Shown here piece after piece: positions 36,401 to 64,000 of a stretch of DNA of 64,000 nucleotides. The DNA comes from Colius striatus. Its lineage: Eukaryota; Chordata; Aves; Coliiformes; Coliidae. The position numbers were made by a program, and so were the translations under genes. The stretch is from positions 5,073,501-5,137,500 of the forward strand of contig NC_084767.1 in the NCBI RefSeq assembly GCF_028858725.1, given 5' to 3'. The number at the start of each line of letters is the position of its first letter. Position 1 is the stretch's first letter. Below the pieces are notes generated by a model. The model saw only the letters and a list, made by a program, of their open reading frames with translations. It did no database searches and was not told the DNA's origin.

Positions 36401-39386
36401 TGTGCCCATGGGTGGCAGCTGGGGCAGGTGGGTGCCTGGGGGAATAGCTTAGTCCCCTGTACTGTTGTGCACATGCACACACTCACGTGTGCCCCCTTGG
36501 CATTCTTTTTTGTCTGCAATGCAATTGAATTTTCCCCCTAACAATTCTTGGGAATGTTTCCCAGCATTTTCACCAGCAGATGCTGAAAAATCTGCAGGAA
36601 TGCAGAGAGATTTAAAAGAGACAGAGTGGGCAGTGGCTGCTTCAGCCTGATCTAGCTGTCCCCTGTGGCACTGGTGTCCTGGGAGTGACAACCAGAAGCT
36701 AGCTGGGGCAGACAGCCAGACCCCAGAAATGTCAGCCTGTGCCCACAGCAGCATTGTCCCCTGTGGCCTGATTCCTGCTACTCCTGCTACTCCTGGCTTG
36801 CAGGAGTATCCTCAGGGGCCTCACATTTCCAGAGTCTATTGGCAGCACAGAGATGTGGGATCCCAGAGTCTGAAACCCTTGACTTGCTTTGCCAGGGAGA
36901 AGGCAGGGTGGTGTACATCAGGAACCTCTCCAGCAGCATGAGCTCCAGCGAACTGAAGAAGCGCTTTGAAGTATTTGGTGAAATCGTGGAGTGTCAGGTC
37001 CTGTCCAGGACTAACAGGTGGGTGAGGAGCGAGCTGTGGTCTGGTGACAAGCCCTCTCCCCAAGCAGCATCAGCACTGCCAGGCAGTGCAGGGTCACTCC
37101 TGTACCCAGCTGTGCCTGGGCGAGGGATGCTGGTGGAGTGGAGGGCTCTGTGCCATGCCACTCCCCTCAGCCAGCTGAGCCTGCGGTCTCAGTGCTTTGG
37201 GCAAGGAGATACAGTGTGTCCCCTGGGCCAAGGGTATGGGGAGCTGGAAGGATGGAGAGCTGGTGAGATGGAGGGCTTGCAGGAGAAGACAGCAGGAGAG
37301 AGCTGGCAGGATGGGGGGCTGGCAGGATGGAGAGGCAGCAGGAGAGAGCTGGTGAGGTGGAGGGCTGGCAGGATGGGAGGACAGCAGGAGAGAGCTGGAG
37401 GGCTGGCAGAATGGGAGGACAGCAGGAGAGAGCTGGTGAGATGGAGGGCTGGCAGGATGGAGAGGCAGCAGGAGAGAGCTGGTGAGATGGAGGGCTGGCA
37501 GAATGGGGGACTGGGGTGCAGTGCTGGGCAGAGCTGCATTGGAAAGGCTGTGGGGCCCATCACAGCTTGAGTTCTTTCTCTGGTTGCTCAGAGGGGATAA
37601 ATATGGCCTCATCACGTACCGGTATTCAGAGCATGCCGCCTTATCTCTGAAGAATGGCACCTCACTAAGGAAGAGGAATGAGCCTTCGTTCCAGCTCAGC
37701 TCTGGTGGCCTCGGGCACTTCTTCTGGACCAGATATGCTAACTTGGGTAAGAAAGCAGGGGCTGCTTGTTCTGTTTATCAGCAGAGCTGTAACTCTGCTG
37801 CACACTGCACCGCTGAACTCCAGTCCTGCACGGACCTTCATCTCCCTTAGGGCCAGCAGGAAAAGCTTACCAGCTCTCCTATGGCTGATGTGCCTGCTCT
37901 TAGCTTAGTTAGATGGCTTGGGAAAATGGGGAGAGAAGAAACTGGTGTGAGGACACAGAAGGTGTTGGCTGCCAAATGCAGCATCACACCAGAGGGCTGC
38001 CGCGTCTCAGCCGATCACAGACCCTCCTGACCCTGCTGCCTTTCTGCACGGTGCTAAACACTGTCCAGCAGAGAAATCCCTTCCCAGTCATTGGAGAAAG
38101 CAGCCAGCAATATCTCATTAGCCCAGGAGGTGCTCTGGGTGGTTTGCTGCTCCACAGGACAGATTCACCACACTGCACATACACTTCTGAGCCAAAATGA
38201 TGGCACTCAAATGTACTGTGGTTGCATTAACTCTTCCTGGGCTGTATGGGCTTCCACAAGACCTCCATTTGGTGACCATGATGGGTCCCACTGGACCCAT
38301 CTCTCTACGGGTGGCAGGGCTACAGCCTGAGCCAAGGGATAGGTGTGAAACCTTACACTATTCCTGCAAGAGAAGTGTGATCCAGCCTTCGCTCAGCCCT
38401 CGTGGCTGCAATCTTCAGGTGTTTCACAAACACCATGCACTTGTCTGTACCTTCTGCAGGGCATGCAGTGGTTCTGGTATCCCACTTCGTGCGTGAGAGA
38501 CTGAGGTCTGGAGAGTAAAGCCTGAAGTCTTGTCTTATCTCTAGATAAGAGTTGTGCCCAGTCTGGCACAACTACTGCCTCATCTTTTAGCACCATATAA
38601 TATCTAATCTGCTCAAAGCAGCAGTCCCTCTGACTTTGGTTGTCAGCCCAAATGCCTACTGTTCATTTAAATAAAACCCAGGGCCTTCTCATTTTGGGCA
38701 CAGAGGAGATAGGAAACAGATAGCACCCCGTGATGTTAGCACATGGCTGCACAGCGCTGTGGGGAGGGAGGCCAGAGCTGCCCCCCTGCACAGGAGAAGC
38801 TCTCTCAGTGCTCCTCACCTGCAGATAGCTGCCAGGCCAGCAGCCACTCCCTTACTGCACAGCTTGGCTCGTTCCTAAAGTGCTGCTCCCTCTGGGATAG
38901 GATGAGACCGTGGCATTTCACAGAGGTGAAAAGCAACCGTGCGGTTCATGGCTCATTGAGAGCCACACACAGACAGGGTGAAGCTGCTGCTCAGTGGGGC
39001 AGCCTTGCTTGTGGCTTTTTGGGGCACTGTATGTTGATCCCCAGGCCGAGGGTGGGCAGATGGCCCCGTGGCACAGCGCCTCGGAATTCAGCCGTGTCCC
39101 GCAGATGTTGGCACACCCAGAACTGGTGCCAATGGTGTGTGGCTTGCCACAGCCCCTCTCCTCGGGGCGAGAGCTGACACCGCCAGGCTGGTGTGCCAGT
39201 AGGTGGAGGGGAGGGGGAGCAACGCCCTGTCGTGCCTCAGTTTCCCTCCTGACCTGCTGCCTCATGTCCCTGCCCTTCCCAGATTGCAGCGCGGAGGAGT
39301 CCTCCCCAGCTCCAGTGAAAAGCAAGTACGAGACCATGGATTTCGACAGCTTGCTGCAGGAGGCCCAGCTAAGCCTGCATCGGTAA
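27238..39386 (+). CDS. PPARGC1B: PPARGC1B (PGC-1beta) transcriptional coactivator, exons 2-12
   Basis: Spliced CDS 27238-27411, 29403-29615, 31404-31520, 32275-33406, 33899-33935, 34300-34364, 34820-35573, 35985-36060, 36896-37017, 37592-37746, 39283-39386. All junctions are GT-AG and the joined frame is open for 982 codons to TAA; the N-terminal exon is missing upstream. PGC-1beta is a nuclear coactivator that docks on nuclear receptors (ERRs, PPARs) and NRF1 to drive mitochondrial and lipid genes. Counting residues from 27238: N-terminal acidic activation region; LxxLL motifs LKKLL at 130-134 and LKELL at 337-341; conserved RYMHTYCLP block; TPPTTPP at 582-588; HCF-1-type DHDY at 664-667; 11-Glu run at 776-786; short RS segment; RRM from about 860; C-terminus MDFDSLL. 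The RRM and the paired TPPTTPP/DHDY blocks mark the PGC-1 family. The two-LxxLL layout and remembered similarity favour PGC-1beta over PGC-1alpha. The long Glu tract I recall upstream of the VRRSKRLNP block in human PGC-1beta is absent here. Confidence 0.95.
29403..29615 (+). CDS. PPARGC1B: PPARGC1B exon 3
   Basis: 71 codons, phase 0 at both ends. It encodes the [18 protein letters not shown] block, which continues the activation domain, then a Pro-rich linker ending in FDELSL. The donor is CTA|GTAAGA. The frame stays open far into the intron; see findings. Confidence 0.93.
30386..30417 (+). other. Short AT-rich hairpin in PPARGC1B intron
   Basis: The arms TATATATCACACA (30386-30398) and TGTGTTATATATA (30405-30417) pair at 12 of 13 positions around a 6-nt loop. 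It lies in the intron after exon 3. It is too short for a canonical pri-miRNA and no function is assigned. Confidence 0.6.
31404..31520 (+). CDS. PPARGC1B: PPARGC1B exon 4 (first LxxLL motif)
   Basis: 39 codons, phase 0 at both ends, opening directly with LKKLL, the nuclear-receptor box. Since it is in phase at both ends, skipping this exon would remove the first LxxLL without a frameshift. Human isoforms with and without the equivalent exon are known to me. Confidence 0.92.
32275..33406 (+). CDS. PPARGC1B: PPARGC1B exon 5 (large; second LxxLL)
   Basis: 1132 bp, starting after ctctgaag and ending GAGCAAGCAG|GTGAGG (phase 1). It begins with the [13 protein letters not shown] block, then a Ser-rich acidic stretch, the RYMHTYCLP block, [19 protein letters not shown] with the second receptor box at 32779-32793, and the [17 protein letters not shown] block. 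The rest is low-complexity Pro/Gly/Glu sequence. It is very GC-rich, which explains the long antisense open frames over it. Confidence 0.95.
33899..33935 (+). CDS. PPARGC1B: PPARGC1B exon 6 (37-bp microexon)
   Basis: It lies between ctttcag and gtaagt, enters in phase 1 and leaves in phase 2, and encodes [12 protein letters not shown]. It restores the frame between exons 5 and 7 and matches the PRCL-LALSQ segment I recall from human PGC-1beta. Confidence 0.88.
34300..34364 (+). CDS. PPARGC1B: PPARGC1B exon 7
   Basis: 65 bp between ttttccag and gtagaa. It encodes [19 protein letters not shown], equivalent to the ERTLSVELSGTAG block of PGC-1alpha. It leaves in phase 1 and joins the TPPTTPP motif of the next exon. 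Confidence 0.92.
34820..35573 (+). CDS. PPARGC1B: PPARGC1B exon 8 (DHDY, acidic and RS segments)
   Basis: 754 bp. It encodes [24 protein letters not shown], the [10 protein letters not shown] host-cell-factor-binding motif (DHDY at 35071-35082), [19 protein letters not shown], an 11-Glu run starting at 35407 and a short SR-repeat ending SRRAFR. Its acceptor is unusual, preceded by an 11-base G run with a weak polypyrimidine tract. The donor is TTCAG|GTACAG. Confidence 0.94.
35985..36060 (+). CDS. PPARGC1B: PPARGC1B exon 9
   Basis: 76 bp between cttcccag and gtaagt. It encodes the basic segment ending EKRREKAV just before the RRM, matching the KRREKAIGEGR junction of PGC-1beta. Confidence 0.92.
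36896..37017 (+). CDS. PPARGC1B: PPARGC1B exon 10 (RRM first half)
   Basis: 122 bp between tttgccag and gtgggt. It encodes [13 protein letters not shown] and [16 protein letters not shown], that is, RNP2 (VYIRNL), helix 1 and strand 2 of the RRM. It leaves in phase 2. A second GT (ggtgagg) lies 4 bp downstream, but only the site used here keeps the frame. Confidence 0.94.
37240..37509. repeat. 46-bp minisatellite (VNTR) in PPARGC1B intron 10
   Basis: Five copies of an anchor (agcaggagagagctgg) start at 37291, 37337, 37383, 37421 and 37467. Spacing is 46, 46, 38 and 46 bp, so the unit is 46 bp with one 8-bp deletion. Partial units flank both sides. Several units contain ggtgag, a donor-like hexamer, and the array ends about 80 bp before the next exon. 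Confidence 0.92.
37592..37746 (+). CDS. PPARGC1B: PPARGC1B exon 11 (RRM second half)
   Basis: 155 bp between gttgctcag and gtaaga. It encodes [19 protein letters not shown], with the RNP1-type KYGLITYRY, then [14 protein letters not shown] and FFWTRYANL. It completes the RRM and leaves in phase 1. Confidence 0.94.
39283..39386 (+). CDS. PPARGC1B: PPARGC1B last coding exon
   Basis: After cttcccag it encodes the conserved C-terminus [22 protein letters not shown], followed by TAA at 39384-39386. The same KYxxxDFDSLLxEAQ ending occurs in PGC-1alpha. Confidence 0.95.
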
Positions 39387-44216: not shown

Positions 44217-44222
44217 AATAAA
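44217..44222 (+). terminator. PPARGC1B: Polyadenylation signal AATAAA (PPARGC1B)
   Basis: Canonical AATAAA at the end of an AT-rich stretch. GC-rich, unrelated sequence follows after about 60 bp, and a TGTGCTG segment lies about 45 bp downstream. Cleavage is expected at about 44235-44245. Confidence 0.7.
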
Positions 44223-48772: not shown

Positions 48773-48873
48773 GGGGGCCCCGTCCCGCTGGGGGCCCCGT
48801 CCCGCTGGGGACCCCGTCCCGCTGGGGGCCCCGTCCCGCTGGGGCTCCGGGCCGCTGGGGGCCCCGTCCCGCC
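48773..48873. repeat. 17-bp GC-rich minisatellite in TRIM-A promoter
   Basis: Six head-to-tail copies of GGGGGCCCCGTCCCGCT. Five are 17 bp with 0-1 changes; the fifth is a 16-bp diverged unit. The repeated G and C runs could form G-quadruplex or hairpin structures. The array ends 128 bp before the ATG. Confidence 0.93.
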
Positions 48874-48964: not shown

Positions 48965-48980
48965 TTTCGGTTTCCTTTTC
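48965..48980. promoter_or_regulatory. Triple TTTC element (ISRE/IRF-type site)
   Basis: TTTC-GG-TTTC-CT-TTTC, which on the minus strand reads GAAA-NN-GAAA-NN-GAAA. This is exactly the 6-bp periodicity bound by IRF family factors and ISGF3. It lies 21 bp before the TRIM-A start codon in CpG-rich DNA. Interferon response is an inference; the same pyrimidine run could instead serve a splice acceptor. Confidence 0.55.
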
Positions 48981-49001
48981 CGCTGCACTCCCGCAGGCGC
49001 C

Positions 49002-49631
49002 ATGGCCGAGCCGGTCTCTGTGGCGGGGCTGGAGGAGGACTTGACCTGTGCCATCTGCCTGAGCATTTACAGCGACCCCGTGACCCTGAGCTGCGGCCAC
49101 AGCTTCTGCAAGGAGTGCATCCAGAGCTGCCTCAAGCAGTGCCCACAGAGCCCCTTCAGCTGCCCGCTCTGCCATGGCCAGGCAGACGCCACCGTGCAGC
49201 TGCAGCCCAACATCCAGCTCCGCAGCATCGCCCAGAAGTTTTTGGATGCTCCTGCCCCTCCAGAGGAGGCAAAGCGTGAGGTACCGTGCAAAGAGGAAGG
49301 GGAAAGTTCGGGCCAGGAAGACAAGGTGATCCGCTGTGATTTCTGCCTTCAAGATCCTGAGCCAGCCATGAAGACGTGCCTGAGCTGCGAGGCCTCCCTG
49401 TGCCAAGCCCACCTGAGCAGGCACACCAAGAAGAGCACCTGGAAGGACCATGTCCTGGTGGAGCCCTGCAACACCCAGGCTTTGGCCGAGAGGAAATGCA
49501 GCAAGCATGGCAAAGTGCTGGAGTGCTTCTGCAAGACGGACTCTCTCTGCCTCTGCATGCTGTGCTGTGTCATGGGCTCCCACAAGAACCACGAGATTGT
49601 CACTTTGGAGGAGGCTTTCGACCAAGCGCAG
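49002..49631 (+). CDS. TRIM-A exon 1 (RING and both B-boxes)
   Basis: 210 codons ending GCGCAG|GTAAGA, phase 0. All eight RING zinc ligands and all sixteen B-box positions are intact, so the E3 module should be functional. A single exon holding RING plus both B-boxes is typical of TRIM25-like genes. Confidence 0.95.
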
Positions 49632-52600
49632 GTAAGAGGCTGCCAGGGCAGAGGGCCTGGGCGCAGATTGCATTAGGAACACCACGGAGGTGAGTGGCAC
49701 GGAGAGCTGCTTGCAGCACAGGGATGAAACAGGTCCAGAGTTTCAGACCTGCAGACTCTGGATGGGCTTAAGTCTCCATCTTGGGATACTGGGCTTTTAT
49801 TCCTGCTTTTGCCACATTCCCTCTGGGCTCGCCCCTCAGGATTTAAAACAAGATGTTACCAAATACTTTCTTTCCTTCCTGGGGTGCCAGACTGGTGGGA
49901 CAGAGTGCTTGTGGCTATACTTTTAGCCCTCAGTGCACTTTCCAGCCAGAAGATCAGCCTGAGCTGCATTTATTCAAAGGAAATTAACGACAGAGTAACC
50001 AAAAGGGAGCTATCAGCTCTGGAAGTAGTTTTATATGTGATTTAAAAGCATGAGCAGTTTTCAGTTTCAAAATGTATTTCCCCTGCTTGTAATTGTGGTG
50101 TTTGTTCATGGATAAAATCTTCCAGTAAACCTTTATGTATTGATTTTGTCGTGAGAGCTTGCAGTGAACAAACTTTTTGCAGGTCTTGCTTAACCCACTC
50201 CATTAAATTGCTGGTCTCATGCACATGTGTCAGTCCTATCCTCATATTTTTTAGACGCTTCTTCCTGAAACTCTACAAGAAGTGAGAACATATGAAACTG
50301 CACTGAAGGAAACCATGACAAAACTGCTGCAACAAGAGGAGAAAGTAAAGGTTTGTTTGAAGGTTCCATATCTTTTCAGGGATGGTTGCATGCTGGTGGC
50401 CGATAAGGTTTTGTTTTGTGCTTTCCCAGATGATGGGTTACAAAGCTTTTGAGTTCCTGGGTGGTTTCTCAGATATTTTCTAGGTTTCTTCTTTGAGGGA
50501 ACAATTTTCTCACCAGTCTGGGAAGTACATTCTTAGTGTTCAAAGGACCTTTGAGCTTGAAAGGTACTGCAAAGTCCATGTCTCCTGATGAGTGGGTGGT
50601 GGTTAGCTTTTTTGTCTGAACAACCTTTTGCACTTTGCAGACTCTGCGATATTTGTGGAAAAGATACAGACCATGTTACAGTGATTTTATTCCTCTTTAC
50701 AACTAGAAATTCCTATGGCTCTGAGAAGTTGGTAGGAACGAGGTTAAAAGATTGCCCCAAATTGTCTGCTTTTTGCTCCCAGGTGCAAATGCCTATTTAA
50801 AAGCTCTGAAGGAGCAGGGAAATGAACACAGCTCTCCAAATCCCAGTTCATTCTGCCTAGGCAGAATTGTCACTTGCCTTCCTCCAGCAGTAAAAGCCAT
50901 GGGACTAGAAGTCCTGGTCCTGGGCAAAGGAAATGTTCCCTTCTAGTCTGAAGACAAAACCGTACCCGTTGGCAGCGTCCTGGCTGGCAGTGTAGCTGCT
51001 TTCAAACAGTGAAGGACACTTGGTGGAGGCAGTAAGCAGAGAAACTGGTTTTCCTCACCCATCCTTAAAAGGACCAGAGACAATGTGTCCATAGAAAAAT
51101 ATCTGTGCAGAGGAAGGAAATATATGAAAATTGAGAGCCTTCATCAAGCATTGTGCATTCCATCTTTTTCTGGTCAGATGCTGGGGAATGCCACTTAGGA
51201 CACTCTGCTGTCAGAGAGGCATCTTGGTTTGATGTCATATGGAGAGGCACTAAGCCAGTAGTTACTTCTGTGAGCCCAGAAAAGGCCAGGCTCTTTTTTG
51301 AGTGGGAGTTAGTGTGGAAAATGCAGTCCCTAACAGCTTTGAAAGTGTTTTCTTAATAGACTAAGGAGACCTGGCAGAAGAGTCAGCTTGGCAAGCTCTT
51401 TGGAGAGATGTGTATGCAGCTAAGTTACACAGAAGAAAAGGTCCTAAAAACTCTCAGGGACAGCGAGGAGCAACAGCTTTCTCAGATTCAGTCACAGATA
51501 CTAAAATACAAAGATGAGAAGGATGCAGTCATCTGTGATATACGGAAGCTGGAGGCTCTGAAAGATCAGAAGGATCTACTTCTTTTTGTCAAGGTACAAT
51601 GTTTTGTCAGCATCTCTCTTCCCAGAGATACTCAGCTCTTGGGCTGGCCTTTGCCTGCACTATACTAAATTGACTTTCAAAATGTCTTTTACAGACTTTT
51701 ACAGAAATTCAGGCCAGGTAAGCTCGTCCCACGGTGATCTGCTCTTGCATTACATGTTGCTTCAGGTGACTGTGGTCTGCTAGCCAAGCCTGCATGCACT
51801 GCTGGCCCACAGCTCCCTGGGCTCATCCTGGCCACCCCTTGGGCTTGCTGACTGCATGCTGGGCCTGGCTTTGCCAGAGACCTGGAGAAAGCCCCAAATA
51901 CTAACAGAGGTCATGTGTGACTCTTCATGTACAACATGGCTTCTTCTTCTGTACATGTGTTCTCCAGACCCATTCTGAGGGCAGTTCCTGAATGTTCAGG
52001 TACCTGGGTGGGCATGCAAAGAAAGGATGAGTTTAGGGATCCTGAATCATCCTCGATTTGCGTTGCCTTCTGCTTGTAAGAAGTAAATGTGGAAGGAGGG
52101 AAAACACTCAGTGAAGTCGTGAGTCTGCAGACTTCATGGCTGTTCTTCAGTGCCTGCCCAGCACTGATCCTCCACCACAGCCTGGAGACTTGTACTGTCC
52201 ATGGAGTGAGCTTCATCCTAATGATCTTGAACAGATTTGGGGTTTTGGGAAAAGACTGGTCAGAGCAGGAGTCCCTGGGAAAGGTGCAGAGGGAGAAAAG
52301 GATAGAATTGGTTTTCTATATCTCCCACTGAGGCTGAATGGTGATCAGGGATGGGCTGGGTGATGGTTTGTTTCCTGATGACTTGCTGCTCTTCTGATGT
52401 CCTTCTGTGTGTTTTAGGAAGCGCAAGCTAGATCCTAACGAGGGTGATATAAAACTGCCAACACCACCTATTGTTTTGAACAAATTAACAAGGGGAGCTA
52501 CTCTAAGGCTTTTCCGGCAGTTCCACTCAGACATGCAGTTCTTATTTCAAACACCACCTGGTAAGTGGTCATTTCACTCCATGACAAGCAAGACAACATA

Positions 52601-54477
52601 TTTAAGAAAGGACTGTAATGAGACACCCAGCACACCAAGTACCCCTGGAAGAACTGGCAGTTAACATGTATGAATATTTTCATGTATGAGGATATGAAGG
52701 GGTGCTTGTCCTGGCCTTCAGCACCTTGGGACATGCCTTGAATACATCTGTTAAAATGGACTCCAGAGGTGTGGAGTTTTCTAGAAGAAAAAGTATTGCT
52801 ATTCTCTTCTCATATCCTCCCTGAGAACTTCTAGATCTTCCAGAAGAATTCTCTGGGAGAATTAAGAGAATAGCAATACTTCTTCTGTCTGTAGCCTGAC
52901 TTTGATCCCCTGTAGGACAGGGAGAGTTGAGAACTCATCACAGCAGCAGCAGGTGGATTTTGTCTTGTGATGTAAATGATTTACTCTTTCAGTAATTCTA
53001 CTCTTTTGCAATGTTTTGTGAGATCAACCTGCAGTCCCAGTGCTGTGCATGGTGGGATGCTTGTCCAACTGCATTGAAAAAATAAGGTTCCCTTATTACT
53101 GCTGTCTTGATGGTGCTTGAGCCTTTGCTCAAGTGAGAGACAGCTGAGGTGAGGAGGCTCTGCCCAGGGTGTGCGTCACACTGTGTGACGTGCCCACCTA
53201 ACTGGCTGCCATCCCTGCAGCCCTGGGTACACTGAGAAGCTCACTGTGCTCATGGCTGCCTCTGAGCTCAGTCTGCACCATCCCTGTAAGCATAGTCTAG
53301 ACTTATTCTCTCAGATCCAGGCTTTCCCAGTTACACCATCTGAGCAATTTGAGTTGGTTGCCCAAGTCTGACGTGATGTTGGTCTCCTGAAGGAGTCGCT
53401 TCCAGAGCAGAAAGTGCCACAAATGTTGAAAGGCATCATGTGCAAGAGAAGGTCTGAATAAAAACATTCTGCAAGTTCCTGAGTGTACAATTACCTTCTT
53501 CTGACTGGTCACGCTAAGAAGTTGTAGGGAGTAACTTGAAATGATCCTAAGCAAATAAGCATTTATAAAATGGCTGTGCTGCTCCTCACACATTTCTTGT
53601 ACGTGGCTATTAATCTGGGAAGCTTTAAAAAATGCCTAATGAAGCTCTGCAGGACAGTGATGGAGAGTGAAGATCTAAGGGTTGCTGTAGTTGGAAATAA
53701 AAAGCAAAATGACACTTTAAAATTGTGAAAGGCAGGCATTGGAATATAATATCAACCCCCTTTAGAATTACATAGGAGCACCTAAGAGAGGTGCAGAAGG
53801 TGTTCGGAGTTAATGTCTATTTTTAATGACTTGGGTGGCTTGGACTTGGATAGGATGACTTGGATTGGGAAATCTAGGCTTCAGCAATGCAAATCTGCAG
53901 TTATCTGTTAATCATAATGTGTTGTTTTTTTCTTTCTATAGTTCATGAACATTTGACTTATCAAGAGGATTTGTGTAGTCCTGTTCCCAATGTAATCCCT
54001 GCACCCTCGCATCTATCATTTGGGTTCTCAAGTAACAAAATCCCTGCATCCCCACAACCTTTATATGGATTATCATTCACACGCAATGCCACCCCCTATA
54101 CAAAGAGAGAACACAAGAGCCATCAGAGCTTCTCAACAGGCTGTCACTTCTGGGAGGTGGACACCAGCAACGCGAGGCAGTGGGAGCTCGGAATCTGTCA
54201 GAACAACTTTCTGTGCTACCTGCAAATGTCTCATAATAGTTACCTCTGTCTATTCCTAGCTGGAACCAAGATCACAGAGAAGCACTTTCCTACAGCTCTC
54301 AAAGTGGTCAGGGTAGAGCTAGACTGCAGAAGAAATATACTGTCATTTTATGACGTGTCTGAAAGGTGTGAAGATCCTGCTGACGGCCTCAAGCTTATAG
54401 AGTCAATAAGCATCCCTTCAAACTATCCTGCCAGAGCTTTTTTCAGCATGTCTGATGGCAATTTGAAGCTCCTGTAG
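49002..54477 (+). CDS. TRIM-A: RING / B-box1 / B-box2 / coiled-coil / SPRY-like E3 ubiquitin ligase
   Basis: Spliced CDS 49002-49631, 50255-50350, 51360-51593, 51695-51717, 52418-52560, 53942-54477: 554 codons, 553 aa, GT-AG throughout. RING C3HC4: C16, C19, C31, H33, C36, C39, C54, C57. B-box 1: C112, C115, C126, C129, C134, H137, H141, H150. B-box 2: C166, H169, C177, D180, C185, C188, H194, H197. Coiled coil about 211-330; SPRY-like end with WEVD at 446 and WELGIC at 456. TRIM proteins are RING E3 ligases that dimerise through the coiled coil; many of the TRIM25 class act in cytoplasmic antiviral signalling. The 96/234/23-bp exon series and tandem B-boxes resemble TRIM25 and finTRIM-type genes, but I cannot name an ortholog. 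The start is the first ATG of the RING frame, in good context (GCCATGG). It has a tandem paralog 1.6 kb downstream. Substrate and antiviral role are not shown by the sequence. Confidence 0.9.
50255..50350 (+). CDS. TRIM-A exon 2 (coiled coil, 96 bp)
   Basis: 32 codons, phase 0 at both ends, between tttttag and gtttgt. It encodes TLQEVRTYETALKETMTKLL, the first coiled-coil segment. 96 bp is the characteristic length of this TRIM exon. Confidence 0.92.
51360..51593 (+). CDS. TRIM-A exon 3 (coiled coil, 234 bp)
   Basis: 78 codons, phase 0 at both ends, between cttaatag and gtacaa. The product is rich in Glu, Lys, Gln and Leu with heptad spacing (for example QLSQIQSQILKYKDEKDAV) and ends LLLFVK. 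It is the main dimerisation coiled coil. Confidence 0.93.
51695..51717 (+). CDS. TRIM-A exon 4 (23-bp microexon)
   Basis: Encodes TFTEIQA plus two bases of Arg, between ttttacag and gtaagc. A 23-bp exon here is a hallmark of the TRIM class and matches TRIM-B. Confidence 0.88.
52418..52560 (+). CDS. TRIM-A exon 5 (linker)
   Basis: 143 bp between tgttttag and gtaagt. It encodes a basic start RKRKLDPNEGDIKLPTPP and then ATLRLFRQFHSDMQFLFQ. It links coiled coil to SPRY, with phase 2 entry and phase 1 exit. The basic RKRK could act as a nuclear signal (speculative). Confidence 0.88.
52783..52886 (+). other. Long near-perfect hairpin in TRIM-A intron 5
   Basis: An inverted repeat of about 104 nt with roughly 38 base pairs. 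The core is a perfect 16-bp stem pairing 52793-52808 (GTATTGCTATTCTCTT) with 52864-52879. It is extended outward by 7 bp after a 3-nt bulge and inward by three 5-bp helices to a 9-nt loop. It could be a miRNA-like precursor or a foldback/MITE-type repeat; no known family was recognised. It sits on the sense strand of the host intron. Confidence 0.75.
53942..54477 (+). CDS. TRIM-A exon 6 (SPRY-like domain, stop)
   Basis: 536 bp ending at TAG 54475-54477. It encodes a B30.2/SPRY-like domain: FSTGCHFWEVDTS, RQWELGIC, LKVVRVELDCRRNILSFYDV and a final PARAFFSMSDGNLKLL. The N-terminal PRY part lacks the usual LDPDTA-type motif, and the central Trp-rich strand is replaced by YLCLFL, so it is a divergent member of the family. 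Confidence 0.9.
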
Positions 54478-54752
54478 TGATGTGGGGACAACGTGCTGGT
54501 TTCTATTTCCAGGCCTGTGTGTTGGGACTGCTGCTGTGAGGAGGCTGTGCTGAGCTGGCATATTAGAAATTGGATTTGGGGGATGCTGTGGTGGCTCATC
54601 CCTGTCATATACCTCTGTGGAGTATATCACAGCCCACTGCCACTGACTGCAAGAGCTCCTGTCTTATTTGTTCTGTTAATCATGATGGAAATACTTTTAA
54701 GTTGCACTGTCTTTTTCCTCAGCTGGATGAGATGCTATGTTGACTGCATGTT

Positions 54753-54758
54753 ATTAAA
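54753..54758 (+). terminator. Polyadenylation signal ATTAAA (TRIM-A)
   Basis: The common variant ATTAAA, 276 bp after the TRIM-A stop, followed by a GTTTGCAAAA stretch. It gives TRIM-A a short 3' UTR ending at about 54775. Confidence 0.65.
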
Positions 54759-54779
54759 GTAATTGAGTTTGCAAAACTA

Positions 54780-56040
54780 AATGGCTGTTAGTTTATAAAA
54801 AACAATTGACAGCACTACATTAACTGCTATAGAACTAAGCAGCAGTGATGACAATCTTTGCTCCCATGCCTCAGCTTTTGCTTCTGCCCTCCCCTCCTTC
54901 ATCTGACCCACACAACTGAAGCCAACCAGTGCAGAAGCAAAGCTGTGGGAGGAGGGTAGGGACTGGGTGGTAAGACCCCCATATGCCCTTGCTCTCTGCT
55001 ACTGTCAGACCCTGTGAGCTCTCTCTTAGATCACTTTCCTCCTTGCCTCAACTTTAATTTCCTCCTCACCTATTCAAAAAAACCAAACCCTCACAGCAAA
55101 GGGAGTAATAAAGAGGAAGCCTCCTGTGCCTTTAGTCTGTGCCACGTGGGGCCTGGGTTAGTTTGTTCTTATGACTGTCCAAACACCTTGGAAACGAAGA
55201 GGTGATATTCCTGCCTGGGATTCTGCTGCCCTCAGACAGAGGTAGGGTATTTGCATGAAGAGGTCCAGGCAGGAGCTTTTCACCCCAGAAGGGACGGTGA
55301 AGGATCAGTAAAGGCACTAGTTTTGCTTATACTAAAAGAAAGCCTTGTTCAGTCTTAGAAGAAAGCAGCTACATTTTGTCTTTTGCATTTCATACACTAC
55401 AATCATGTGGAACACTGTGGGGGTAGAGTTGAGTCTCTGAGCTGCAACCACCCTGGCTGCTGCTCCATCTGGTCTTTGGAGTACAAGGTAAGCAGTGCTC
55501 ATGGCAGGGGCCAGGGAGATTCTGTCCTGGAGTGTCTTTCCCAGCCCTTGTTTCCCTGACAGCCAGCTGCAGGCAGCAGACCAGCCTCAACAAGCCCCAG
55601 TAAAACTTTCCACCTTATCTTTATTTTAGGGGAAAATGCTTTAGGGAAGCATCTGTAACTGTTGTGGAGAAGAACCAGACAAAGCAGAGGGAATGCCTGG
55701 CTTACCCCTGCCAGGCTCATACTCTTCTTGTCTTGGGCTTATCTTTAATTCACTGGTTCTGGCGTGGGCTGGAGGGTTTCTCTGGAAGGCAGAGGGCTGT
55801 AGGAGAACAATCCACCTCATGCCTTCCCCAACACCTCCTGCTCCCATGAGCATGCTGGGGACTCACACATGGAGATGTGTTGCTGCCCGAGGCTGAGGGA
55901 AATAACTGAAAGCAGCTGCCAGGGCTCACAAGAACCATTTGTAGGTGGAGCCTGGGCTGGGGAGTGTTATCTCTGCTGGCCTGGTGCAGGGCAGGGAGGA
56001 AGGACCTGCAGCCTCCCTCCGGGCTGGGTCTCCACCCAGG
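54780..56040. other. Intergenic region between TRIM-A and TRIM-B
   Basis: About 1.3 kb without a recognisable gene or repeat. Open frames are under 75 codons. The distal part presumably holds the TRIM-B promoter, which is much less CpG-rich than that of TRIM-A. Confidence 0.6.
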
Positions 56041-56064
56041 ACGCTACGTCAGGGATGCAATTTT

Positions 56065-56077
56065 AGTTTCGTTTCTC
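56065..56077. promoter_or_regulatory. Imperfect ISRE-like motif upstream of TRIM-B
   Basis: AGTTTCGTTTCTC, 33 bp before the TRIM-B ATG. The two TTTC cores are 5 bp apart instead of the 6 bp of a true ISRE, so this is a weak match. It is noted because TRIM-A has a perfectly spaced element in the equivalent place. Confidence 0.25.
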
Positions 56078-56109
56078 GAAGACTGCTTGACACTGCCATT
56101 TCTGCAGCC

Positions 56110-56730
56110 ATGGCAAACGCTAGGGAAGAATTGGGAAGGGGTGCTGGCCTGGAGGACGAACTCAGCTGTCCCATCTGCCTGTCTCTGTACAAGAACCCGG
56201 TGTCGCTGAGCTGCGGTCACAGCTTCTGCAAGCTCTGCATCCAGAAGGCTCTCGGGGCCCAACAGCAATCCAAGACCCCGTACTTCTGTCCCATGTGTAA
56301 GCTCCAGCTGGGGCCTGTCCTCGAGCTGCAGAAGAATTTCAAGCTGTGCAGCATTGTGGAGGCATTTCTGGCTACCACTTCCAAAGGACAGCAGGGTGAG
56401 GGCTCTGCAGAGGGGAAGAAGGAGGTGGTTCCCTGTGACTACTGCCTGGATCAGTCCCAGCCAGCTGTGAAAACCTGCCTCAACTGCAACGCGTCTCTGT
56501 GCGAGGCCCACCTGAGCAAACACAATGCCAAGGCTCCCCAGCAGGACCACGTCCTGGTGGAGGTGGGCTCAGGCAGGAGTGCGGAGGGGAGGTGGTGCCA
56601 GGAGCACAGCAGGCCGCTGGAGTGCTACTGCCAGAACGAGGAGCAGTTTATCTGCATGCTCTGCTCCATTGCGGGCTGCCACAAGGGCCACGACATCATC
56701 ACTCTGAAGGAGGCACATGAGAAACAGCTG
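56110..56730 (+). CDS. TRIM-B exon 1 (RING and both B-boxes)
   Basis: 207 codons ending GAAACAGCTG|GTAAGG, phase 0. All zinc ligands are intact, with Glu177 in place of the Asp in B-box 2. ATG context is GCCATGG. The frame is open upstream to 55945, but the RING spacing and the paralog's start favour this ATG. Confidence 0.93.
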
Positions 56731-59700
56731 GTAAGGGGCGCTCCTCTCCCCTGCTCCACGCTCTTGGACTGGAGGAGGGGGGGAAGCCACAGGAGGGGTG
56801 GCAAGGCTTTCCCCAGGGAGTAGCAATGGGGTGGGGGGGTGAGGGCAGGCATTTGGGTGATTTTATGTCTGTCCCAGCAGGGACTGGTGCCTTGTGCTGT
56901 ACTTTGCTTTTCATTTCCTCCTTTGTGTGGCTAGAGCAGCCTGGCAGCCTAAGCAGAGGGAAAAGAGCAGAGAAAGGTGTCTGGGGCTGGTAGGACATGG
57001 GTGGGTAAATCCCAAAGTGTGTGTTGCCGTGGGTGTGGGGGAACGAGCTCATGGCAGGCTCAGGGCCCTGCTGTCCCACACCACTGAAGTGCATGCCTGT
57101 CCTGTGCAGCCCCAGGCAACTGCAAAATGCCTTTTACAACGGCATTCCTGGCTGGGATTGACAAATATTCCTTCAGGGAATAAGAAGTGGCTTTTTCAGG
57201 GACCCCACGGCTGCTGAATTTTGGGTTGGGAAGTAGGCTTTCCCACTTGGAGCATTTTGCTCTGTCTCCCTTCTCCTTCTGCCCTAAGTTTTGCAGAGTC
57301 AGTTCCAGTAGGCACAGAGATGTGGAGCTTCAGTGGCCTTTCCTCTGAGTTCAGCTGCTGGCCTTGAAATACTCCAAAGTCAACTGAGACTGAGGAGATA
57401 AAGTGCATTTGGTATGCTCATTCTCACTGCCTTTCGTTTGAAATCTCTGGGCTCAGTTTAGAGCCTAAGCAAAACACCCTGGAGGAGCCCAGTGCGTGGG
57501 CAGCAAATGCCTGGCTCTTTCTGGACCACAGGAAAGGTCATGGCCTCCTTGGGAATTATCAGGAACCATCCTTTGCAGTTACACCTATTGCAAACTAACT
57601 TTCACTCCAAAGTTATGTATAAAAGACTCGGGGCTGTCAAACTGAAAGTGAGCTCTGTAGCAGCCAGTTCCTCCTCTGGAACAGGTACAGGAACAACACT
57701 GCCCTGTCTGTGAGGAAGCCATCTCCATGGGTAAGCTCTCAGCTGCACATTCCTCTTCATTTTTTCCTTTTCAGACTCCCTAGGACAGCCAGAGAAATCA
57801 AGAATGCAGCTCTTCAGGGGGAATTATAAAAGGATTGTGGTGCAAGGGACCTTGGTCAGATTTGCTTCTTTGACTTTTAATTTTTCAGAACTTAAAACTC
57901 TCCAGATATGACAACTCTCTCATGCAAAATCTAAGCTTTCTGGCATCATTTTTCTTAAAGAAAGGGGAATCTGGCAGCTGTGACTGCTAAGGCCATTCAT
58001 GGGTGCTTTAGGTGTGACAACACTGCTGGAGGCAGCCAGGAGCAGCCAGAACCGCTCAGAGACCGTCCAATCCCCAAAGAACAGGGTTTAGCATCCTGTC
58101 TGAAATGTGTTACCGTGCAGTATAACAGCACTCACTGATCGTTGGTGTCCCTTAAAATAAACAGCTGGATGAGTAAGTACTGCTGTTTCACTGCTCCTCA
58201 GAAAAGGTGGTTGCTTATTACCTTATCCTCAGATCCCATAGCTGCTGACAAATGTGAAAACCAAGGCACTGTTTCACATTAGGCACTTCTGAAGATTCTG
58301 TCAGGACCAGTGTTTTAATGGATAAAGTGAAATGTATTCATTTAAACTGAAATTTAAATTCAAAGGGGAAGTTGTTTATTAACCAGCCACTGACAGTTAC
58401 ACATGTATAGAAATCAAACATTGACTTGAAAAGTTTCAAAATCATATCAATTTTCCCTATGCCCTGTCTTGATGAGGAGGGAAGTGAATACAGTTGATGA
58501 AAGGACTCGCTGGTCAAAGTGGGCAGATAGAAGGTGCCTGTGCCATTTTACCAGCTCCACATGTTGCCAGTCTGGTTTAAAGCTACTTGTGCTCCTTCCC
58601 TGCCATGAAGTTCAATGTTGTCTTTCCTTCTGCTAGGCTCTACTCTCAGACAAGGTGACCTGGCTGCAGGAACGTAGCCGTGCTTTAGCTGGCATCCTAG
58701 AAGACCTTCTTGAAAATGAGGATCAGATCAAGGTTGGTACCCAGACTGTTGCTTATTGAGAGCATCTTTCCTTCACAATTTCCCTCACATGAGTGATGGC
58801 AGCAATGCTGTTAGAAGCAGATAAATAGAAAGAGATGCAATCCAAAGCGGGGAAAACATTGGTGTAAGAAACTGCCAGAAGCCAAGCTTCCTCACAGCCT
58901 CCCAGCAAAGCTCCACAGGAGGCACCAGCTGAGAGATTCCACAATTTATTGTGCTTGCATAGACCAGGTTATGGGACTGGCAGACCAGAGACTCTGTGTA
59001 TATATATATATAAAATCAAGTATTTTCGAAGTTTTCTATCAGATAAACAAAAACAGTTTGAGTCTGCATATTAGGATTCTCAGCACGTGCTGATACAGTT
59101 CTCACATTACTAGATTAATTTTATCTGATTTTTCTTTACTATATCAGGATTAATTGTCACAATCCTGTCTTTAATCAGATATTCTGACAAATGCTCATTG
59201 TCTGCTTCCTTCTGAAGCTAGTTCAAAGTGGAGATACAACCCTAATTAATAAACCGAGACACTAAGCTCAACTGTTGAGTTACCATCTTCTTATCTGTCC
59301 ATTTAGACCAACACAAGAACAGTGACTTCTCAGCTGAAAAAGCTGTTTGAAGAGATTAAAACAGAGATGATTCAGAAAGAGAAGAAGATCCTGAGTGACA
59401 TTCAAATGAATGAGAGAAAACAACTGGAAGAGATTGCCAAAGCGAAGGACACAACGAAACAGCTGAGAGTTGAGGTTTCACAGCATCTTCAGTCTTTGCA
59501 GAAGATGAGAGAGCAACAAGATATTTTCATCTTCTTCAAAGTAAGCAGCAGTATTCTGCTTTTCTTCATGAATGTGTTTATTTCTCAGCCTGCTTCCCTT
59601 TCTGGAAATCATACTAACAGGGGTTTGTTTTCTTTCCCTTTTTTTTTTGGCAATCCTATTTGTAGGAATTTAAAGTGGCAAAGAACAGGTACGTTCCACT

Positions 59701-62700
59701 GGAAAACACATTCTTCCTTGAAAATCTACGGTGTTGATAACTCAGATCTCACTGCTTGTGTCCCTTTGTCCTCGCACCTTACACTGCAAAGCTGCTCCCT
59801 GTTGCAGCTGAACCAGAGAGCACCTTGTCCACACAAGGACTGAGGATGGAGAGAGATCTGCCTGCTGTTATAGTGGTCCCTTTAAGTTTCAGTTGCCTTG
59901 ACAGCTACACAGTTGCTGGGTTCTGATGAAAAACACTGGCTTTTATTACCAGAAAAAATGTTTTTCTCAGAGATGGAGCCCATAGGGTTCAGTTTACAGC
60001 AACACTCTTGGATGTGTGTTGGTGACGTTCCTGCACATAAGTCCCAGTGAGCAGCCTATGGCAGCAGAGGTAACTGTCTCATTTCCCACCAGTCTTTGCT
60101 TCTGTTTGTAGACAAGCTTAGTAGCTAAACAGATTTATTATCCCTCCTCTTGCAAACGATACAATTAATTTTTAACTTAGCACTTCCTAATCAGCACCTG
60201 AGTGTCAGCTGCAATTCAATGGTGCAAAACCCCACCAACAGTAAGGTGCAGATCCCCAAGAGATTTTGCTGCAGCACTAAACTCCCTAAGCTGCATCAAG
60301 GGCTGGCTCAAACATCTTGCTGGGTTTTAAGATGTCACCTCTGTAACTTGGAGAAATTAAAGCTGAGTCTGAACTTGGACTGTAAGGATAACTTTGAATC
60401 ACCGTGTAGCTAGGGCTGTGCTGCTAGCAGCACTGGCCATTACTCACAGCTATGCTGCAAGTCAAAATCCAGCCTATGGGATCAAAGTCATTTTCCAGAA
60501 GCCTGGACACCGTTTAATACATTTGGCATTTTCTTTCGATCGTGACGGGGACTGTGCTGGAACAGTAAGAGCCTGCCTGCAGCAGGTCAAAGCACCATTT
60601 GTACAAGGGTGTTAGCAAAACACCAACCCCCCGCTTTTCTCATGTTCAGCATTTGAAAGTTTCAGGTTTGGTAAACAAAAAGTAACAGTATCTTACCGGA
60701 GAGCCATTTACCTGATACTTCATGTGGCCAAAGCATCAACCTCTTTGCAGAGTCCTTCCTGGTGACTTTCTAATGCTAAATGCTTTTCCTTGGTGAAATG
60801 ACTGCCTGTGCCCTAGGATTGCAAGTCAGAATGTCAGCATCAACAGGATGAATGTGGTGGTGGTGAATCTGGAAGAGGCTAGGTTCAGCAACTGCCGACA
60901 GCTGTACAGAGGCTTCATGAATCAGCTGGATATGCTGGCCCAGTATGCATATAGTGAGTGAACTGCCCCCTCACCCACAGCCTTATTTGAGCTGCCCCTC
61001 AACTCACAGCCCTGCATGAGCTGCCCTGACCCACTGCCCCTCGCCTCTGACCCCAGCCAAAGCCAGGAAGCTGTGGGGTTCAGTGAGAGAGCTGACAGCC
61101 ACCAGAGCAGGGCTCATTTATATGGGGTATGCACGTGGCCTTGTGAGGCTGATGAGGTGTTGAGAAGGGAAAGACTGTTTCTGGGGATTCCAAAGAAGAG
61201 GTCTGCTTCTCCCCAGCGTAAGACCAGCTTCTCCTCTGCCTGATGTAGTTTCCTGCTCCCGCCTACTTCCCCAGTCTTTGGGTGCTCAATCATACCTCTG
61301 ACAAATGTCCTCTGTGTTTGTCTGCCTCCATCCCCTCCCAGTTAATCCCCAACCATGAGATGCAGGGGCACGTCCCAAACTTGAATTGCCAGCTTTGTAA
61401 AACATTCTTCTCCATCTTTCTCAGATGAACTCGTGAACCAAATTAGGCGGAACTGGCTCTTCAAATCAGCGAGACTGAACAGGTAAATTCCTTACTTACA
61501 AAATATTGCCTGCAAATTTTTCCAAGAGTTGTTCATTTAGTGTCTGTGTGTCCTCTGCTTCAATCTCAAGGAGAGCCAAACAGAGCCCAGAACGCTCTCT
61601 TTCACCTCAAAAGAGAGGGTCAGATGTATTGATGTCCTCGTATTTCATTATTAACAAGTTGTGATTTGTGGTGTAAGAGGTACTAACATTCAACACTTTC
61701 TTTACAGGAAGGCTGCAAATACCAGAGCTTCTTCAAATTGTAAGTGTTCAAAAATACTGTGTATTGCTCAGGACTGTGGCCTGTGACTGTGCATTTTACA
61801 GAGAAAAATCTCTCATGTAAAAATGAGAATAGCATTTTGTTGCATGCATCTCCTGTCCTTGCCAGAGGTGAGACCAGCAGGAGTGTAGCCTCAGGGCACA
61901 GTTCTCAAAATCTGTAGTGGGCAGAAATCTCTGGGAATTCACTAGAGAGATCTTATCTTCAGCCTGAAGACTGGGTTTGCTTCAGTACTTGGTAAAATTC
62001 TGAGCTTGCTCTGAGGAAAGACCGTAGAGGGATTCCCACCGCTGAGCAGGAGCTGGAGCAAACCCAGTGCCTGAAAGGATTCCCAGACAAATGCAAGTGC
62101 TGCAGGAGATGTTAAATCTGTGAAGAGTGTTTCTCTTCAGACAGCACTAGTCCAGTGCTCAAATACATTTCTGCTGGGTAGGGCAGTGCATCTTTTCTAT
62201 AACCCATTTTGAAAAGGAAGCTATTCAGAAGCTGTTTGCAAGATTAAAAAAATTGTGTGTAGTTGCTGCAATTAAAGTTCAGTTTGCAGTCAAATTTTTC
62301 TTAATTCATAAATTCAAATGGAATCCTACTTACCTCTCTTCTGACAAGCATTTCTTCCAAATCTTACTTTGGGAAAGATGTGTTTGAGAATTGTTGTTCA
62401 GTGAGGGAGTTGAGGACAATGTGTTCTTGCCTTAAATGCAAACATACTAGTTTTACCAGATTCATTTGAAAACCCACAAATGAACAATGCTTTCTTTTAT
62501 CCTTAATGGATGGAGAGGACAAGCAGCATGCAGTGCAGGTAAGCAATTAAATGGAAATTTAATTACACAGCACAGCTTAACACTACAGTTGCTTTCATTT
62601 AACATAATGCCAGCCTCAAATGTAGAAGCATACTTTAAAATCAATGTACGTGGTCATTTATTTGTCTTGTGAGCTCAGTCTTCTGCACACACATTAATGT

Positions 62701-62845
62701 CCGTGTTCTAGAAGAGATATTTTTTTCCTGAGGCAATGCAAAGCTGTACTTGGAAGCAGCTGGTCAAAGATGTTATTGGCAGGGCAATGAAATATTGTTT
62801 ATTATTACAGTGAGTGAAGCTTTTCCATCTTGTGTACTCCTATAG
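56110..62845 (+). CDS. TRIM-B: RING / B-box1 / B-box2 / coiled-coil protein, no SPRY seen
   Basis: Proposed CDS 56110-56730, 58637-58732, 59307-59540, 59666-59688, 60817-60953, 61425-61482, 61708-61739, 62811-62845: 412 codons, 411 aa, all GT-AG and in frame. RING C20, C23, C35, H37, C40, C43, C60, C63; B-box 1 C109-H147; B-box 2 C163-H194; coiled coil about 208-330. Role: a RING E3 ubiquitin ligase, tandem paralog of TRIM-A, with close matches in each zinc module (for example KTCLNCNASLCEAHLSKH against KTCLSCEASLCQAHLSRH). The first four exons are secure. The last four are predicted from splice sites and frame only; their peptide has no domain I recognise. A SPRY exon outside the window, or alternative splicing, remains possible. 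TRIM proteins without a C-terminal domain often still act through RING/coiled-coil dimers, or antagonise paralogs. Confidence 0.7.
58637..58732 (+). CDS. TRIM-B exon 2 (coiled coil, 96 bp)
   Basis: 32 codons, phase 0 at both ends, between tctgctag and gttggt. It encodes KVTWLQERSRALAGILEDLL. Same length and phase as TRIM-A exon 2. Confidence 0.9.
58997..59013. repeat. (TA)n microsatellite
   Basis: A short TA run (GTATATATATATATA) in TRIM-B intron 2. Confidence 0.9.
59307..59540 (+). CDS. TRIM-B exon 3 (coiled coil, 234 bp)
   Basis: 78 codons, phase 0 at both ends, between catttag and gtaagc. It encodes a highly charged helix (KKLFEEIKTEMIQKEKKIL) ending DIFIFFK. Same size and phase as TRIM-A exon 3. 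Confidence 0.92.
59666..59688 (+). CDS. TRIM-B exon 4 (23-bp microexon)
   Basis: Encodes EFKVAKN plus two bases of Arg, between atttgtag and gtacgt. Same length and phase as TRIM-A exon 4. Confidence 0.85.
60817..60953 (+). CDS. TRIM-B exon 5 (predicted)
   Basis: 137 bp between gccctag and gtgagt, phase 2 to phase 1, the same phases as TRIM-A exon 5. It encodes IASQNVSINRMNVVVVNLEE and FMNQLDMLAQYAY. It is not alignable by eye with TRIM-A exon 5. Confidence 0.65.
61425..61482 (+). CDS. TRIM-B exon 6 (predicted, 58 bp)
   Basis: Between tttctcag and gtaaat; encodes NELVNQIRRNWLFKSARLN. The splice sites are good and the frame is kept (phase 1 in, phase 2 out). It sits where TRIM-A has its SPRY exon. 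Confidence 0.55.
61708..61739 (+). CDS. TRIM-B exon 7 (predicted, 32 bp)
   Basis: Between ctttacag and gtaagt; encodes RKAANTRASSN. It is very short and supported only by splice sites and phase. Confidence 0.45.
62811..62845 (+). CDS. TRIM-B last exon (predicted) with stop
   Basis: After tattacag the frame reads SEAFPSCVLL and stops at TAG 62843-62845. A competing acceptor (ctatag, ending 62845) would also stop within four codons. Either way the protein ends without a SPRY domain unless an exon beyond the window is used. Confidence 0.4.
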
Positions 62846-63860
62846 CAGAAACCAACTGAAAGGATCAGCGTGCTTCAAGTGGCAAGGTGTATGGTCCACA
62901 CATGCCCAGAAGTAAGAGAAAAAGAAATCAGAACTGAGAAGGGAAGAAAAAAAAATGAATACTATCAAAAATGTCCTCTAAGGAGGGGGACCTGCCAAGC
63001 ATCTTGACCTCCCCTGCTAGTGAAAGCAATTCTGTAGCATATGCTGGTTTAGCAAAGAAGCACTAATTAAAGCAAATGTAAGGAAATCTCTAACTGCTGC
63101 CGACTTCCAAACGGTGGACTATTTCATCTCATGGTTCCAGTGACTCTTCTGTACTATTAATTGTGGTGACTATGTATGTGATTGGATAACTAAATAAGTG
63201 GCTATAGATACAGATAAGCGAGGCTGGCCCATTTCCAACCCTCACCAGGCTTTAACTGTTGAGAGCATTGTGCATGGCTGCAGTAGAGAGCTGTTCAGGA
63301 GCATGCCACAGATTTGGAGTATCACATTTTACACAAGTGATCTTTGTAGGAAAGAAATGTGCATGAAACCAGCTTGGTCAGCCTCTAAGCCACATTTTAA
63401 CATTCGTGCAGAGTGCTCAGAGCCATGTGGAATACCACAATCAGCAGCAGGCAAAGGTGCTTTGGTGGCCACATCTCCTTGCGTACAGATGTTCTTTTTT
63501 GGTCAAGCACATGCTGAGCTTTCCAGATGTAGCCTTTACTGCATGTGTCAACTCCACAGAGGGATTTCATGGACAGTGCCAGGCAGATGGTTTCACTCTT
63601 TGTTGCTGTAGGCTGTACCTAGCTGTGATTCAGATCTAACACAGGAACACCAGACCTGTCTGTTTCTTCTTCCAATGGCAAAAATATTCTACTGCAAACC
63701 ACAGTTTCCAACACAGAGATTTTTAATAAGGGCTAAAGTTCTGGGTGCTTCTATGTAAATTAGGATTCATGGCTATAACTCTGTTGTGTCAGGTGTGATG
63801 ATCAGCATATATCTAATGGCAGGGATTAAACCCAATAAACTCTACAGAATCCATCTTGGG
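62846..63860 (+). other. Probable TRIM-B 3' UTR
   Basis: AT-rich sequence after the proposed stop, up to the AATAAA at 63834. An open frame at 63198-63611 shows no SPRY or other domain and is treated as chance. Confidence 0.45.
63834..63839 (+). terminator. Polyadenylation signal AATAAA (TRIM-B)
   Basis: Canonical AATAAA, with a GT-rich/T-rich stretch (gggtttaaagttttccttta) about 20 bp downstream. It supports transcription of TRIM-B ending inside the window. Confidence 0.55.
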
Positions 63861-64000
63861 TTTAAAGTTTTCCTTTATGGTTTAAATGGACTCACCAAGC
63901 TGTAAGGGATCTGCAGCCCTTGCTCTGCTGTACACATCAATTGTCAGCCTCACAGAAAGTGCATGGCTACATTCTGGGAGCTCAGAAGTAGCTCAAGGTG

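Follow-up and report, generated by a model that had tools for sequence, protein, structure and literature searches.

The closest described counterparts of this locus are two chicken genes. Campbell, Peery and Magor named them TRIM210 and TRIM211; they are intact and adjacent, and mammalian orthologs are absent (PMC10445537, 2023). Both are grouped with TRIM14, TRIM16, TRIM25, TRIM47, TRIM65 and RNF135 in the TRIM25 cluster. According to the passages of that paper which deal with the pair, TRIM211 occurs in birds and reptiles and TRIM210 was found only in birds. Duck TRIM211 contains premature stops, is a likely pseudogene and is annotated inside the PPARGC1B 3' UTR. Duck lacks TRIM210, and the authors note that the deletion there could be a misassembly. 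The duck region is called syntenic. The duck naming and this synteny together suggest that the chicken pair also lies beside PPARGC1B. In duck, chromosome 19 carries TRIM25 and chromosome 14 carries TRIM211; lizard TRIM211 shares the TRIM25 locus, next to the MHC. The same passages give no published function for either gene as of that paper. Of 13 papers matched in full text by either name, only PMC10445537 contains TRIM210; each of the other 12 has a string starting with TRIM211, one to three times. Most of these strings are probably TRIM21 with a citation number attached.

The window (the whole stretch of 64,000 nucleotides analysed here) contains an adjacent TRIM pair beside PPARGC1B, as in the published arrangement. 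By their position, gene 1 probably corresponds to TRIM211 and gene 2 to TRIM210. Their probable orthology rests on position and clade, because an adjacent, same-strand RBCC pair beside PPARGC1B matches what has been described and because TRIM25 is the best PDB match of both. The reading favoured here, with high confidence, is that the pair are this species' copies of the two bird genes, that they arose by an old tandem duplication in the TRIM25 clade, and that they would act as TRIM25-like dimeric antiviral ligases. The names, the distribution among birds and reptiles and the placement in the TRIM25 cluster are taken from PMC10445537. The sequence-only reading implied that the TRIM pair was new; the locus is already published in that paper and is not a new discovery. 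Its claim that the genes are sauropsid- or bird-specific and absent in mammals is supported by the same source rather than by a comparison of our own. The features of the window are:

36689..37567, plus strand: open frame with the PPARGC1B RRM exon (Pfam RRM_1, E 6.5e-5)
48965..48980, minus strand: IRF-like triple repeat GAAANNGAAANNGAAA, located 22-37 bp 5' of the gene 1 ATG
49002..49631, plus strand: gene 1 exon 1, 630 bp; RING, B-box1, B-box2
50255..50350, plus strand: gene 1 exon 2, 96 bp
51360..51593, plus strand: gene 1 exon 3, 234 bp; coiled-coil region
51695..51717, plus strand: gene 1 exon 4, 23 bp
52418..52560, plus strand: gene 1 exon 5, 143 bp; linker preceding the SPRY
53942..54477, plus strand: gene 1 exon 6; predicted divergent B30.2/SPRY domain and stop
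56110..56730, plus strand: gene 2 exon 1, 621 bp; RING, B-box1, B-box2
58637..58732, plus strand: gene 2 exon 2, 96 bp
59307..59540, plus strand: gene 2 exon 3, 234 bp; coiled-coil region
59666..59688, plus strand: gene 2 exon 4, 23 bp
60817..60953, plus strand: gene 2 candidate exon 5, 137 bp; phases match gene 1 exon 5, weak similarity
61425..61482, plus strand: gene 2 candidate exon 6, 58 bp; its splice sites score 9.9 and 9.4
61708..61739, plus strand: gene 2 candidate exon 7, 32 bp; used by 90 of the top 200 splice chains
62811..62845, plus strand: gene 2 doubtful terminal exon (exon 8); yields SEAFPSCVLL-stop, CaaX-like

PPARGC1B lies directly upstream of the pair on the plus strand, as had been claimed from the sequence. 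Its RRM exon falls in the open frame at 36689-37567, and its last-exon stop is at 39384-39386, 9.6 kb 5' of the gene 1 ATG. Three motifs (LKKLLL at 31404, DHDYCQ at 35071 and a C-terminal motif of 21 residues) we take to be of PGC-1 type or to mark PGC-1beta; one set of PGC-1 patterns gave no match in the region after 30000. Past the stop, AATAAA first occurs at 44217 and then at 47158, which would allow for a long PPARGC1B 3' UTR or for transcription running on toward gene 1, as the annotation has it in duck.

Both genes may plausibly have a noncoding first exon. Acceptor-like sites place the first exon base 5 bases before the gene 1 ATG (at 48997) and 2 bases before the gene 2 ATG, with splice-site matrix scores of 7.8 and 7.3. 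Such a site, scoring at least 7, is present within 6 bases of 44 of the 945 ATGs in the window. The IRF-like repeat GAAANNGAAANNGAAA is the sole copy in the window and was produced by none of 60 Markov simulations (0 in 60). It should be noted that the two-unit pattern GAAANNGAAA is found 12 times in the window (1-64000), against 1.28 expected from first-order Markov simulation; the simulation is therefore too lenient and understates chance for GAAANNGAAANNGAAA. For this reason, and because it overlaps the pyrimidine-rich stretch of the acceptor-like site, the repeat is not claimed as a promoter element. An imperfect TTTTAGTTTCGTTTC resembling it is present near gene 2, at about 56061. A GC-rich 17-bp tandem repeat of 5.9 copies spans 48773-48872, just 5' of gene 1.

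The domains and exon structure of the pair can be read directly in the window. The first four coding exons measure 630/96/234/23 bp in gene 1 and 621/96/234/23 bp in gene 2, with AG/GT boundaries and one open frame in each gene. The sequence-only reading had reported two same-strand genes of RING/B-box1/B-box2/coiled-coil type; they start at 49002 and 56110, and the exon sizes were reproduced exactly. It had also called the zinc modules closely similar; the ligand patterns of RING, B-box1 and B-box2 are complete in both proteins when searched by regular expression. Pfam places the RING over the curated cut-off (E 2.1e-8 in gene 1, 1.5e-10 in gene 2), and likewise zf-B_box at B-box2 (E 1.5e-7 and 4.7e-7). 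B-box1 receives only an ANCHR-like Pfam match under the cut-off, though its ligand pattern is present. The Pfam coiled-coil model TRIM_CC is under its cut-off in both genes (E 0.001 and 0.0074); the TRIM25 alignment spans this region.

The two proteins resemble one another far past chance, with 36% identity over 367 aa (E 2.35e-76). Across the RBCC modules, 117 of 285 aligned residues are identical (41.1%), compared with 89 of 288 (30.9%) and 88 of 278 (31.7%) between gene 1 and gene 2, respectively, and a human TRIM25 fragment. The top PDB match of both is TRIM25 (4cfg; E 3.7e-32 for gene 1 and 1.3e-31 for gene 2), among the best 60 of 166 matches for gene 1 and the best 60 of 112 for gene 2; few TRIMs in the PDB carry a full RBCC, so that TRIM25 is closest within a small sample. 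Two contig collections were searched for relatives of gene 2 exon 1: viral_contigs gave 4 pattern matches and none was confirmed, and genome_contigs gave 31 with none confirmed, as expected for a vertebrate gene.

These values bear on how the pair came to lie together. It is quite improbable that the two are distantly related TRIMs brought side by side rather than tandem duplicates. An identity of only 36-41% would be in keeping with such an origin, as would the published distribution, in which TRIM211 is present in reptiles and TRIM210 was found in birds only (PMC10445537, passages on the pair). Against it, the lengths of the first four exons are near-identical, their phases are the same, and the two genes are more like each other than either is like TRIM25. 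Tandem duplication, as proposed by the sequence-only reading, thus fits. For its suggestion that the genes were possibly gained at this place there is an alternative: lizard TRIM211 is found with TRIM25 near the MHC (PMC10445537), and the position next to PPARGC1B may therefore reflect the move of an older gene, not an origin here.

Gene 1 encodes 553 aa in a single frame that is open to the end of the gene, with the exons read from the sequence. Its C terminus is a predicted divergent SPRY domain. When the SPRY exon alone is searched by sequence against the PDB, it matches the B30.2 domains of butyrophilin 3 (E 6.9e-6) and TRIM21 (E 5.7e-5). Pfam SPRY on exon 6 is under its cut-off (E 0.0063), and no PRY model is reported. 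A single-sequence AlphaFold model of this exon is all-beta and poor (mean pLDDT 40.8) and is not used as evidence. The distance from exon 5 to the SPRY exon is 1.4 kb.

Gene 2 is open through exon 4, again with exons read from the sequence, and it is its ending that is in question. A SPRY was sought up to the window end at 64000 and was not detected; tblastn of the gene 1 SPRY against 54500-64000 gave a best match of E 0.79, with no SPRY-like stretch within 3 kb 3' of candidate exon 5. One splice chain, through 60817-60953, 61425-61482, 61708-61739 and 62811-62845, gives a protein of 411 aa with a CVLL end. Chains were enumerated, not exhaustively, with a small gene-finder that uses splice-site matrices, keeps the best 3000 partial chains at each step and takes sites with a score of at least 4. 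Of the top 200 chains, 52 include exon 5, 146 include exon 6, 90 include exon 7 and 2 include exon 8. The best-scoring chain holds exons 5, 6 and 7 but ends differently from CVLL; the complete chain to CVLL comes 486th of 70894. The end point at 62845 given by the sequence-only reading is accordingly the stop of one possible gene 2 chain, and that part of its interval is insecure. An imperfect 29-bp tandem repeat is found at 60959-61039, directly 3' of candidate exon 5.

The candidate exons differ in how far they look coding. The resemblance of gene 2 exon 5 to gene 1 exon 5 is weak and was equalled by 54 of 2000 shuffles; among 4050 open noncoding windows that overlap one another, 232 reach its codon score. 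Exons 5 and 6 have positive codon scores and exons 7 and 8 negative ones (45-codon noncoding windows have a mean of -5.69), and the 87-codon tail as a whole scores -3.97. CaaX-like ends also arise by chance: 16 of 3263 stops with four preceding sense codons (both strands, any frame) carry one by a broad definition and 5 of 3263 by a strict one; of 73 different terminal ends among the enumerated chains, 2 are CaaX-like. The motif in gene 2 is found only in a low-ranked splice chain. With that rank and these chance ends in view, CVLL is not put forward as the main finding. A SPRY-less tail ending in CVLL, a possible prenylation box, could be new; support for it is weak, and it may have arisen by chance. 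Given the weak similarity of exon 5, the negative codon scores of exons 7 and 8 and the low rank of the chain, the CVLL ending is treated as a lead, not as a result.

Three accounts of the gene 2 ending can be weighed. In the strongest, with a little less than an even chance, gene 2 is of the SPRY type and complete: its SPRY exon would lie past the window end, and the small exons 5-8 would be partly or wholly unreal; this is compatible with the identification of the pair as TRIM211 and TRIM210. TRIM210 is mentioned in the paragraph of PMC10445537 on the C-IV (PRY-SPRY) subfamily, and the low rank of the chain to 62845, the near absence of exon 8 from the top 200 chains and the negative score of the 87-codon tail all point the same way. 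The spacing does not, as gene 1 has its SPRY 1.4 kb past exon 5, yet for gene 2 none was detected in 3 kb; nor does the membership of exons 5-7 in the best-scoring chain, or the positive scores of exons 5 and 6 against the noncoding mean. It is unlikely that gene 2 is instead in decay or truncated and lacks a functional C terminus. Decay would be consistent with the SPRY not being detected within the window, with the negative scores of exons 7 and 8 and with duck, where the pair consists of a likely pseudogene and a missing gene (PMC10445537); the RING, both B-boxes and the coiled-coil exons of gene 2 are nevertheless open, its ligands are kept and its splice scores are within the range of gene 1.

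Very unlikely, finally, is the account in which gene 2 lacks a SPRY and ends through short exons in CVLL, as a TRIM25-clade ligase that geranylgeranylation would anchor to membranes. If it were true, such a ligase would carry antiviral ubiquitination to endomembranes or mitochondria, with no SPRY to read substrates. No prenylated TRIM is described in the titles and abstract starts of the full-text matches listed (17 of 17 and 10 of 26 papers).

The favoured reading of the pair as bird TRIM211 and TRIM210 carries a proposal for function. For both genes we infer orthology, E3 activity, dimerisation and pathway. An old tandem duplication in the TRIM25 clade would have given gene 1 (TRIM211) and gene 2 (TRIM210). 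The coiled coil would make each protein a dimer; the RING would bind a ubiquitin-charged E2, and ubiquitin chains would be built on targets, which in gene 1 may be chosen by the divergent SPRY domain. By analogy with TRIM25, the likeliest role is that of dimeric RING ligases in antiviral RNA-sensing signalling, with MDA5, LGP2 or RIG-I, and MAVS. The authors of PMC10445537 suggest that TRIM210 and TRIM211 may bind helicase domains like other members of the clade. They also report that RNF135 is missing in chicken and in several further birds, and that some of these apparently lack RIG-I as well; chickens are without RIG-I (PMC5702118). Birds thus differ in the parts of the RIG-I pathway, and bird relatives of TRIM25 are therefore candidates for a role there. 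In chicken transcriptomes, expression of an unplaced "TRIM25-like" gene is higher with virulent than with avirulent Newcastle disease virus (PMC9145607), and at 10 h of avian reovirus infection an unplaced "TRIM25-like" gene shows raised expression (PMC5702118); the passages concerned name no locus and settle nothing on the pair. What the window contributes is a pair that is open through the RBCC, together with the question of how TRIM210 ends.

Known systems resemble the two genes to different degrees. FBXL2 is comparable to the CVLL tail of gene 2 by analogy only: it needs a C-terminal CaaX for geranylgeranylation and membrane location (PMC5627969), but it is a prenylated F-box ubiquitin-ligase subunit, not a TRIM, and the CaaX of gene 2 is a candidate only. 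TRIM72 (PDB 7xyz) is the second-best PDB match of both genes and aligns with gene 1 from the coiled coil into the SPRY, although with lower scores (E 8.7e-18 for gene 1 and 3e-20 for gene 2). Human TRIM25 (PDB 4cfg) has the order RING/B-box1/B-box2/coiled coil that is predicted for them and is the top match of both (best 60 of 166 and of 112), but its RBCC is only 31-32% identical to theirs. The published pair differs in that gene 2 of the window shows no SPRY up to 64000. Duck TRIM211 is likewise adjacent to PPARGC1B, within its 3' UTR annotation (PMC10445537); both window genes are open through the RBCC, whereas the duck copy described there is not. The nearest likeness is to chicken TRIM211 and TRIM210, an adjacent pair of the TRIM25 cluster (PMC10445537) to which the two genes are likened by position and clade.
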